A stretch of DNA of 64,000 bases from Picochlorum sp. 'celeri'. Its lineage: Eukaryota; Chlorophyta; Trebouxiophyceae. The position numbers and the translations under genes are program-made. The stretch covers positions 186,001-250,000 of the forward strand of contig JAACMV010000004.1 of the NCBI GenBank assembly GCA_010909725.1. The letters are read 5' to 3'. Shown here in pieces: positions 12,684-15,198 of the stretch (within the stretch, counting starts at the first letter, position 1; each line of letters begins with the position of its first letter). The notes beneath the pieces are model-generated. The model had not been told where the DNA came from. It did no database searches and was given only the letters and a program-made list of their open reading frames with translations.

Positions 12684-13868
12684 ATGACAGTGCACCGAGT
12701 GCTCCTTCTGCTCTTCTTGGCGCAATGCGCTCTTGCGAGGCTCAAGCCAAGATTCTCATTCTCCGATCAAGAGGAGGCCGTCGCCTGGAGCGAAGACGTC
12801 CTCAAGCTGAAGAAGCAGTATGACTCCAAAAACGAGAAGGAGGCTCTTGCTGCAAGGAAAGAGGTCGCAACGCTCAGTCGGGAGTGGCGCGAAGAATTTG
12901 ACGTGAAATGGTCTACCAAATTACTTCAGAAAAAGCTCAAGGTGTTCACGGACAACTTATGGTATGTTGGGGAGAAGAATGTGGACTTGGCCAAGGCAAA
13001 GAGCCCATGGTGGGTGTCACAGGGCAAATTCGCAGACCTGACATTCTCTCAATTCAGGAGAGAATATCTGATTGAAGACCTCAAAATACCAAAATTTGAC
13101 TTTGATATAGAGGACTTGAAGATCAGGTTGTTCAGTTGCTTTGACTGGAGGGATGAAGATGTTGTGACTGGTGTCAGGAATCAAGGAGCATGTGGGTCTT
13201 GCTGGGCCTTTGCCGCCATCGCTACCATCGAGTCGAGGTACTTGATCGAGAACGGAGAGACTGTGGATGACAATCCGATCAATTTGTCCGAGCAGCAATT
13301 GGTGGACTGCGTGAGATCACCCAGGAGGGATTTGAACAATGGCAGGTATGACTCTGTTGGCTGCTCAGGAGGATGGTCCGAGGAGGCCATGGAGTATGTT
13401 CGCCAGCATAATGTGACCTATGAGTCCGCCTATCCATATACTGCATCGGATGGTGTGTGCAATCAAAATCCGCTGGACGGGTCAAGTCCTGAACCAGCAA
13501 TGACCTTGGGGGGTCCAAATCCAGGATGGAGTGGCTATTCAGGGGGCAACTCTACCATCATTAAATCTCTACTTGCTGTATCGCCTGTGGCAAACTACAT
13601 CAGGGTGGAGAATGGTTTCCAGTTGTACAATGGTGGGGTCATGGATACAGCATGTACAGGTCAGGGCATTAATCATGCTACTGCAATTGTTGGATACTGC
13701 AACAGCAAGCTTCTGTTTGGAAACTTCAACTATTGGATTGTGAAAAACAGCTGGGGGACTGGTTGGGGAGAAGATGGCTATTACAGGATTCAAACTCGGT
13801 CTAGTGGGGCAGGTGTTTGCGAAAGCCAGTCAAGCATTTTCCAGCCAACAATACCTACAGAGGCTTGA
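12684..13868 (+). CDS. Secreted papain-like cysteine protease, copy 2
   Basis: 394-residue tandem paralogue of the preceding gene with the same layout: signal peptide (VLLLLFLAQCALA), charged prodomain, then a mature C1A domain. The catalytic Gln and Cys (NQGACGSCWAFA), His (NHATAIVGY) and Asn (KNSWGTGWGEDGYYR) are intact, so both copies look active. The join between prodomain and mature enzyme differs most between copies (around 13080-13140), suggesting different processing. Coding sequence around the active-site Cys is identical to copy 1 at the DNA level, including silent sites, which points to recent duplication or gene conversion. Confidence 0.93.
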   Translation: MTVHRVLLLLFLAQCALARLKPRFSFSDQEEAVAWSEDVLKLKKQYDSKNEKEALAARKEVATLSREWREEFDVKWSTKLLQKKLKVFTDNLWYVGEKNVDLAKAKSPWWVSQGKFADLTFSQFRREYLIEDLKIPKFDFDIEDLKIRLFSCFDWRDEDVVTGVRNQGACGSCWAFAAIATIESRYLIENGETVDDNPINLSEQQLVDCVRSPRRDLNNGRYDSVGCSGGWSEEAMEYVRQHNVTYESAYPYTASDGVCNQNPLDGSSPEPAMTLGGPNPGWSGYSGGNSTIIKSLLAVSPVANYIRVENGFQLYNGGVMDTACTGQGINHATAIVGYCNSKLLFGNFNYWIVKNSWGTGWGEDGYYRIQTRSSGAGVCESQSSIFQPTIPTEA

Positions 13869-14300
13869 TGATTTTTTTGGGGGAGCCGTGTGTTCTGCAC
13901 GCCAATGACTTTTTCTGTCCTGCTCTCTTTCTGTATTTTCAGGAGTCGAATAACTTTCAGAGACGAGATGCTTGTGTTATTGTTTTGAAGCACTGTCACT
14001 GATGAGAGGGATGATCTTTGTTTGAACAGGCTAGTAGGTGACACCAGATGCTTGATCCATTGCCTTATGATTGGCATCTGTCTCATTCTATTCCTCTATA
14101 CGTTTCTCGGATTGAATAGATTGCGTTTCTCTGTTGATGTAATTTTAAAGATGTGATTTCACATTGCCTTTCCAGGCAACTTGATGATACCAGCAGGTGT
14201 ATTATGACCACATGTGGCACTAATTCAGAGTACAAGAAGTGCACGCTGACTGAATTCATCCAAGGCAAATGTTTAAAGTGAAGCGAGGACACATAAAAGC

Positions 14301-14304
14301 AAAA
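14301..14304 (-). terminator. Pol III terminator of the permuted tRNA gene
   Basis: TTTT on the minus strand, 8 nt after the last base of the 5' half of the permuted tRNA. A short T run is the normal RNA polymerase III stop signal; its place after the 5' half supports transcription in the permuted order. Confidence 0.55.
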
Positions 14305-14312
14305 GAAGAAGA

Positions 14313-14397
14313 TGGCAAGCGGACGTAATAGCCGTTATACCACTGGAGCTCAGAAGTAATTCTGCTCCAGCCCGGAGTCGAACCGGGGTATCCCGCT
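14313..14397 (-). tRNA. Circularly permuted tRNA-Gly (anticodon GCC)
   Basis: On the minus strand the 3' half comes first: A38 (14397), anticodon-stem strand GCGGG (14396-14392), variable ATAC, T-arm CCCGG-TTCGACT-CCGGG (14387-14371), acceptor CTGGAGC and discriminator A (14363). After a 13-nt spacer (14362-14350) comes the 5' half: acceptor GCTCCAG (14349-14343), TG, D-arm GTAT-AACGGCTA-TTAC, G26, anticodon-stem TCCGC, then TTGCCA (to 14313). Joined between 37 and 38, the pieces form a complete 72-nt cloverleaf: 7/7 acceptor pairs, 5/5 T-stem pairs, 5/5 anticodon-stem pairs with one G-U, loop TTGCCAA, anticodon GCC. The CCAGTGGT start and 4-nt variable loop match eukaryotic tRNA-Gly. A-box TGGTATAACGG, B-box GGTTCGACTCC and a TTTT terminator (14304-14301) are present. 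No CCA is encoded. The exact junction is inferred. Confidence 0.88.
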
Positions 14398-14718
14398 AAT
14401 TACTAAGTTGACAATTAGATGTAGAAAACGAATTTCCTATTCAATATGTAGCAAATGATTACATTACCCGGGCCTTTTGGCCCCCCATTTCGGGCCATTC
14501 ATGGGTTGAAATGATGACATCAAACTTATCAATGAGTTCTATATCATCGAAAGTGGTACCTGAGATGGTAGAGACACTAGAAACCACGGAGGAACGCGAA
14601 GCAGCTTTGAATACTCATCCAACTGATCGATTAGGTATGGATATACATGCGAAAAGAATTCGAGATTCTTTACATTGGTATGAAATTAAATCCGGGCATC
14701 ATGAAAGGCAATCAACAA
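14398..14718. other. Stretch without a supported gene; GC hairpin
   Basis: Lies between the permuted tRNA and ELIP. It holds a perfect GGGCC-TTTT-GGCCC hairpin (14470-14483) on the 5' side of the tRNA gene, and TTACA near 14670, which is a minus-strand TGTAA poly(A) signal for ELIP. A plus-strand frame from 14511 runs into ELIP antisense and has no recognisable product. Confidence 0.4.
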
Positions 14719-15198
14719 TCAAAAGAAACAAGCACCTCCAGCCTGGTGCTCCAAGGCCAACAGCACTGCCCACGCCAGCATGGCTGCCCGCCCATTCACC
14801 TTCTCAGCTCGAACCGACATAAATCCGAAATCTTCATCCTTAACATTCTTCAGAATCGGTATCATCGACGCCCAAATCATCAAGCAGCAAAGGGCAACGT
14901 AGCCATAGTTGGGATTCAAAAACTGCTCAACTATGGATTCAGAGGTTTCCATCTCCCGCAACGCCATGGGGAAAAACATAAGCATGGCTAACCTGCAGTT
15001 GATACGTTCCGGAGCGGGGCCAAATACTCCCATGGCTTCAAACAGTGACAACTTGTTTCTAGGAACCACGACGGAGCCAGTCGTGCCTGTGGTGCCATTA
15101 GAAGCTTTGGTCCTCATATTTTGTAATCTCACTAAATTTGGTACAGATTGTGTGGACCGGATCGGCAATGTGCGCAATCCTCGTGCCAACGACGACAT
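14719..15198 (-). CDS. ELIP / early light-induced-type chlorophyll a/b-binding-like protein
   Basis: 159-residue plastid protein with three predicted membrane helices. Helix 1 contains PAPERINCRLAMLMF and helix 3 contains AEKVNGRAAMLAWAVLLALE, the paired E-x-x-N-x-R-x-A-M chlorophyll-binding signatures of the LHC superfamily; helix 2 (YGYVALCCLMIWASMI) is more divergent. The length and the terminal Gly/Phe-rich tail fit ELIP-type photoprotective thylakoid proteins. The longer open frame overlaps the next gene upstream, so I chose the ATG at 15198, which leads straight into a transit-like sequence (SSLARGLRTLPIRST). Light-stress regulation is expected from the family; nothing in the 82-bp upstream gap proves it. 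Confidence 0.85.
   Translation of the reverse strand: MSSLARGLRTLPIRSTQSVPNLVRLQNMRTKASNGTTGTTGSVVVPRNKLSLFEAMGVFGPAPERINCRLAMLMFFPMALREMETSESIVEQFLNPNYGYVALCCLMIWASMIPILKNVKDEDFGFMSVRAEKVNGRAAMLAWAVLLALEHQAGGACFF

Follow-up and report, generated by a model that had tools for sequence, protein, structure and literature searches.

A short locus on the minus strand of a 64-kb window from the green alga Picochlorum celeri (the window being the whole stretch of DNA analyzed, 64,000 nucleotides) raises the question of whether a tRNA-Gly(GCC) is encoded there with its 3' half in front of its 5' half, as a first-pass annotation had proposed, and whether such a gene stands alone or is one of many in this genome. 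As of 2014, permuted tRNA genes had been described in six unicellular algae and in a single archaeon. The 34 genes tabulated then included 11 from Cyanidioschyzon merolae, at most six per green alga, two from a nucleomorph and two from Thermofilum, and no Gly-GCC was among those 34 (PMC3978253; here and below, statements on published systems refer to the available parts of the cited papers). The distribution originally suggested, Cyanidioschyzon and some prasinophytes, named two groups in which such genes are indeed known but was incomplete, because the Bigelowiella nucleomorph, Thermofilum, and Auxenochlorella also have them.

The gene spans positions 14313-14397 of the window with coordinates exact to the base, A38 being located at 14397 and A37 at 14313. 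Read 5' to 3' on the minus strand, a leader is followed by tRNA positions 38-73, a spacer, positions 1-37 and a trailer, the 3' and 5' halves being 35 nt and 37 nt long, respectively (Table 1). The proposed order of the halves, the 13-nt spacer, the A and B boxes, the downstream T run, and the lack of an encoded CCA in the spacer were all recovered. The spacer, which is free of terminators, falls inside the 1-74 nt span of known permuted genes. The order of the halves is reversed relative to a linear intron-containing tRNA gene, and the only matches to the two halves lie at this locus and its allele, in this reversed order. Rejoining at 37/38 gives the predicted 72-nt tRNA, which ARAGORN read as tRNA-Gly(gcc) from position 1 to 72. 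The assertion that all stems are paired held for the acceptor stem (7/7), the T stem (5/5), and the anticodon stem (5/5, with one U.G at 27-43) but failed for the D stem, which carries a T.T mismatch at 13-22. The conserved bases T8, G18G19, T33, T54T55C56, and A58 were identified by eye. The Levitt pair A15/C48 is unusual and corresponds to R15:Y48 formally only. No reading frame of at least 80 aa overlaps the gene, which is flanked by a frame ending at 13868, presumably encoding a papain-like protease, a smaller minus-strand frame at 13790-14086, and a frame beginning at 14511. Nearly every sequence feature tested supports a type II (37/38) circularly permuted tRNA-Gly(GCC) gene at this locus.

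Table 1. Features of the permuted tRNA-Gly(GCC) locus, in window coordinates.
Feature	Position	Strand	Remark
Candidate Pol III upstream promoter element, GAAATTC, at -39 to -33 from position 38	14430..14436	-	putative function
Leader bases -6 to -3 (GUAA), 4/4 pairs with U32U33G34C35; hBH central helix	14400..14403	-	predicted pairing; covariation over 18 genes
3' half, tRNA positions 38-73, first in the gene; B box GGTTCGACTCC	14363..14397	-	allele 100% identical
Spacer, 13 nt, from discriminator A73 to G1; without CCA or TTTT	14350..14362	-	one SNP on the other haplotype
5' half, tRNA positions 1-37; A box TGGTATAACGG, anticodon GCC	14313..14349	-	allele 100% identical
First TTTT, 9 nt past position 37; candidate Pol III terminator	14301..14304	-	

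We then consider whether the genome also holds a conventional version of this tRNA. The phased diploid assembly of P. celeri amounts to 27.43 Mbp, divided into two sets of 15 scaffolds each (PMC7225527), and the genome searched here comprised 27,412,692 bases in 30 contigs, with most tRNAs located on contig pairs. The 131-base Gly-GCC locus matched only itself and C30:205640-205770, with 99% identity. When the rejoined 72-nt sequence was used as the query against the whole genome at E ≤ 10, only two halves on C4 and two on C30 were returned, each at 100%. The halves of the two alleles are identical, and their single base difference lies inside the spacer. Gly-GCC was absent among the 34 matches returned by the tRNA model, for which 63 of 866 candidates were scored, and no linear Gly-GCC occurred among the 94 listed canonical B-box places on C1-C15. 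Since the rejoined sequence matches only its own locus and the allele, the intact linear gene that would speak against the proposal was found by none of the three routes (72-nt query, tRNA model, and B-box screen). A divergent linear Gly-GCC could have escaped, given the 63 of 866 candidates scored and the three B-box forms sought.

These searches bear on the possibility that the locus is a silent, rearranged tRNA pseudogene, with the halves swapped by duplication or inversion and another tRNA decoding GGC/GGU. The mismatch in the D stem and the unusual Levitt pair would suit such a relic. No linear Gly-GCC that could take over the decoding was found by these three routes, however, and the two haplotypes have kept the halves identical around a spacer that differs by one base. 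Further evidence against a dead copy came from the rest of the genome.

We screened for tRNA genes by three B-box forms, GGTTCRANYCC, CGTTCRANYCG, and AGTTCRANYCT, with 187, 105, and 166 matches genome-wide, respectively. On C1-C15, which, judged by the coordinates of paired matches, contain one partner from each of 12 large contig pairs, 94/94, 53/53, and 75/86 of the listed places were screened, and the resulting counts are lower bounds. At least 18 permuted tRNA genes were identified on one haplotype, compared with at least 23 linear kinds, and all 18 are split at 37/38. Besides the Gly-GCC gene in the window, they are Ala-AGC, Ala-TGC, Ala-CGC, Leu-AAG, Leu-CAG, Leu-TAA, Ser-AGA, Ser-GCT, Arg-TCT, Arg-CCT, Thr-AGT, Thr-CGT, Val-AAC, Val-CAC, Cys-GCA, Tyr-GTA, and elongator Met-CAT. 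Initiator and elongator Met were told apart by what we take to be their typical sequences. With G.U counted, the acceptor (7/7), T (5/5), and anticodon (5/5) stems are complete in 18/18, including Thr-CGT and elongator Met, which were parsed with a variable loop of 5 and had their stems rechecked. The spacers are 11-58 nt long. After rejoining, ARAGORN reported the expected anticodon for all 18, the parse itself being anchored on that anticodon; as a control, 39 of 306 joins between halves of different genes were also called, some of which share stems by descent. With the covariance model R1, whose training set included the Gly-GCC gene of the window and none of the 17 others, the window gene scored 75.8 bits and the others 27.3-72.0 bits. 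Two rejected loci reach 27.5 bits with R1, and the lowest-scoring gene, Ser-AGA (27.3 bits), was therefore accepted for its pairing and not for its score. At those two loci, which are oppositely oriented copies of a T-arm-like 3' half on C8 (L093 287-366 and L096 246-325), neither the acceptor nor the D arm is convincing, and the rest of the tRNA is missing. L050 (acceptor 6/7, T stem 4/5) was also rejected because R1 listed nothing at that place at E ≤ 1.

A query made by joining the 17 other genes retrieved 34 places at E ≤ 0.01, namely the 17 genes themselves and 17 places on paired contigs. The partners are 94-100% alike in 14 of 17 cases, and the three Ala partners reach 80-83%. The Ala-AGC partner is a partial match on the opposite strand, and the Ala-TGC partner had its best alignment with the Ala-CGC segment of the query. 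The Ala partner places are C16:932338, C30:784064, and C30:266426, one of them on the opposite strand. Their low likeness possibly reflects turnover or movement of these genes. At C5:52583-53017 (L209), an interval of about 440 bp holds permuted Val-CAC (+) and Val-AAC (-) as a convergent pair.

Among the 23 linear kinds read on the same chromosomes, 13 have introns. The anticodons of the intron-bearing Arg-CCG, Leu-CAA, Pro-TGG, Ser-TGA, and Arg-ACG were read by hand against other ARAGORN labels. Linear Ser-TGA has one unpaired stem position. A linear look-alike (L111) was excluded from the count because, by our own reading, its anticodon loop has 4 nt. The B-box screen of C1-C15 did not find Gln-TTG, and a D-arm search for it (29 places, two examined) together with the last 17 tRNA regions yielded no further tRNA. 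As Gln-TTG is expected to be necessary for CAA, the tRNA set is incomplete. Of the 41 tRNA kinds read on one haplotype, 18 were found only in permuted form. All of the Ala, Thr, Tyr, and Cys genes found belong to these 18, and the permuted kind is unusually abundant in the Picochlorum genome. The surmise that this genome may depend on an unannotated class of genes is upheld by these 18. The expectation that standard finders miss them was likewise sustained by ARAGORN, which on unrejoined sequence got 0 of the 18 right and made one false call. With at least 17 further genes permuted, a standard finder misses a large part of the needed tRNA set.

Additional evidence came from the leaders. In the Gly-GCC gene, leader bases -6 to -3 can form all four pairs with positions 32-35, leaving 3-nt bulges of -2, -1, 38 and of 36, 37, +1. 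Cleavage at such motifs takes place after the second bulge nucleotide, so that the cuts would fall at 37/+1 and -1/38. This central helix comprises 59 of 72 possible pairs over the 18 genes. When the leaders were permuted among the genes, the mean was 43.1 pairs (s.d. 3.3), and 0 of 10,000 permutations reached 59; the 17 other leader offsets tried gave at most 36 pairs. Anticodon positions 34-35 alone account for 26/36 pairs versus 14.9 expected, with 0 of 10,000 permutations as good. The offset of the helix was chosen on the window gene; without this gene, 55/68 pairs remained versus 40.5 expected (0 of 10,000 permutations). Two genes, Ser-GCT (1/4) and Cys-GCA (2/4), fit the helix poorly. 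The covariation supports the predicted hBH motif, in which the leaders would pair with the anticodon loops where the tRNA-splicing endonuclease would cut. An hBH type at 37/38 has been given for green algae (PMC3978253). Dead relics would not keep intact stems and a splice helix covarying with the loop, as the 17 sister genes do, and a pseudogene is hence quite improbable.

The surroundings of the permuted genes are consistent with transcription by RNA polymerase III. Runs of T4 or longer start 4-36 nt past position 37 in 18/18 genes, compared with 16% of random 39-nt windows drawn from fetched loci of the same genome. No T4 run occurs within any of the 18 spacers, and only one 5' half (Leu-TAA) contains one. 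Upstream, the word AAATTC was found within 110 nt in 11/18 permuted genes, compared with 0.75 expected on the basis of random windows and with six of the leaders being shorter than 110 nt, and in nine of the 18 it lies 29-43 nt before position 38. It takes the form GAAATTC in the Gly-GCC gene (Table 1). Because the word was picked from the permuted set, the linear genes offer a cleaner test, and 9 of the 20 examined (one with 31 nt of upstream sequence) have it upstream versus 4% of background windows. AAATTC/GAAATTC may accordingly belong to an upstream promoter for Pol III. In the 110 nt upstream of the Gly-GCC gene, a search for TATA words found none. The genome also encodes, by sequence match, the TFIIIC subunit Tau95, and the idea of unused internal boxes, as argued for Cyanidioschyzon, is therefore not secured here.

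Regarding the processing machinery, Sen34-like and Sen2-like frames are present in the genome, and a match to RtcB reached 535 bits. A search with PF09511 gave no match, its control searches being equally empty. The Sen34-like domain occurs at one place per haplotype. The Sen2-like domain was found at seven places with equal score, on C10, C16, C21, C25, C9, C12, and C26, and at the same position of C9, C12, and C26. C12 is 25 kb long, and the seven places could represent either amplification or duplicate small contigs.

We propose the following route for the Gly-GCC gene. RNA polymerase III, guided mainly by the upstream AT-rich/GAAATTC element, would make one RNA consisting of the leader, 3' half, spacer, 5' half, and trailer, and would stop at the T run. 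The precursor would fold into a cloverleaf, leaving its two ends free in the anticodon loop, where leader bases -6 to -3 and loop positions 32-35 would create a bulge-helix-bulge-like (hBH) site. Sen2/Sen34 would cleave this site at 37/+1 and -1/38, and RtcB would ligate 37 to 38, producing a circle closed via the 13-nt spacer. RNase P and tRNase Z would take out the spacer, after which CCA would be added. This route is identical to the one published for algae, from which a permuted precursor, a circle, and a mature tRNA have all been reported, with the enzymes given as probable (PMC3978253). We consider it highly probable (roughly 0.92) that the locus is a functional nuclear type II permuted tRNA-Gly(GCC) gene in a diploid green alga with at least 18 such genes per haplotype read, and that its product is matured via Pol III, Sen2/Sen34, RtcB, and a circle. 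The permuted cloverleaf, its presence on both haplotypes with no linear copy detected, the splice-motif covariation, the T run, and the Sen2/Sen34, RtcB, and Tau95 matches support this reading at the sequence level. Transcription of the Gly-GCC gene, a promoter function of the upstream element, formation of the circle, removal of the spacer, and charging are inferred.

A route lacking the circle is conceivable, in which the transcript yields two separate tRNA halves that are then joined in trans, as happens with the split tRNAs of Nanoarchaeum. The same Sen and RtcB enzymes would serve it, and a covalent circle is not visible from sequence alone. The spacers of all 18 genes, short and free of T runs, instead fit a single transcript, and trans-ligation is very improbable.

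We also scored the locus with a covariance model (R2) built from 11 linear tRNA kinds of the same genome reordered as permuted, with the Gly-GCC gene of the window left out and Gly-TCC omitted for a stem that parsed as 4/5. With filters off and both strands of the window searched, R2 identified exactly 14397-14313 with 51.1 bits (E 6.5e-14, E-values of R1 and R2 being rough), and the next-best match in the window scored 13.6 bits. A cmscan search of 13900-14800 against Rfam reported no tRNA; a sub-threshold lncRNA match in this interval (21.4 bits against a gathering score of 40 bits) was taken as chance. Applied to the unrejoined window, ARAGORN called only a tRNA-Cys(aca) at 14362-14453, a misreading built of the leader and the 3' half. 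The notion that T-arm-like and D-arm-like stretches lie together by chance, or that this call marks an ordinary tRNA-Cys, has a negligible likelihood given the E-value of the held-out model, the 17 sister permuted genes, the restriction of the call to the leader and 3' half, and the fact that ACA is no anticodon for Cys codons.

The permuted genes of Picochlorum resemble those of prasinophytes (Ostreococcus and Micromonas) and the Bigelowiella nucleomorph, where nearly all are likewise split at 37/38 with an hBH motif and a short spacer, and some have an AT-rich region upstream (PMC3978253). These genomes contain at most six permuted genes each, whereas Picochlorum, a trebouxiophyte, has 18 on one haplotype. 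C. merolae shares with Picochlorum the leading 3' half, the downstream T stretch, and the lack of an encoded CCA; its genes include a permuted tRNA-Gly(CCC), and a circular intermediate has been demonstrated (PMC3978253). The 11 genes of C. merolae use junctions at 20/21, 37/38, 50/51, and 59/60, in contrast to 18/18 at 37/38 in Picochlorum. TFC1/TFC3 were not identified in C. merolae (PMC3978253), whereas a Tau95 match is present in Picochlorum. The closest relative found reported is Auxenochlorella UTEX 250-A (2025), a diploid trebouxiophyte with permuted tRNA genes, for which the tRNAscan-SE set was incomplete and the permuted genes were then detected (PMC12633428, PMC12636532). The extent seen in Picochlorum could be matched in Auxenochlorella, compared here by main-text passages alone. 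In the open-licence papers searched, permuted tRNA and Picochlorum occurred together only in the Auxenochlorella work and, through its reference list, in a Cyanidiophyceae paper; reports elsewhere are possible. As far as our searches reach, the organism, the extent, and the covariation support for the splice motif are new, the kind of gene itself being known.

Permutation may be a main route by which tRNA genes are built in this lineage, an idea we hold to be somewhat better than an even bet. Pol III would then work with reversed A and B boxes and an upstream element common to linear genes, despite the presence of a TFIIIC subunit, and the transcripts would be circularized by Sen2/Sen34 and RtcB. 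If true, 18 permuted and 13 intron-bearing linear kinds would make 31 of 41 dependent on splicing. An alga with 18 of the 41 kinds found being permuted, and with a Gly-GCC for which no linear copy was detected, makes the start of Pol III on a turned-round internal promoter, the opening of the circle, and the origin of permutation testable. As standard finders miss permuted genes, the tRNA annotations of such genomes are probably incomplete. The Picochlorum SENEW3 assembly was annotated by tRNAscan-SE, and the word "permuted" is absent from the available text of its paper. P. celeri is of commercial interest for biomass (PMC7225527).

Two further sequence features were noticed around the tRNA genes. 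Permuted Ala-TGC and linear Asn, Asp, and Phe genes (L069, L005/L006/L066, L058/L027/L028, L146, and L034) are preceded, at a distance of roughly 85-160 nt, by a similarly oriented repeat whose end reads CCTTGGCGTGCAGAAAACACGGCT. A poly(A) tract follows the repeat in all except L034, whose copy has 5 mismatches. The repeat looks like the 3' end of a retroelement inserting upstream of permuted and linear tRNA genes alike. In the window, a stretch resembling this retroelement end with 2 mismatches lies at 13884-13907 on the minus strand, just past the protease frame and about 400 nt downstream of the Gly-GCC gene. Furthermore, a B-box/T-arm-like stretch, GGTCCCGGGTTCAAA, directly precedes position 1 of linear tRNA-Asn and tRNA-Phe on both haplotypes (L015, L016, L031, and L034), and could be either an additional promoter box or what remains of a former 3' half.
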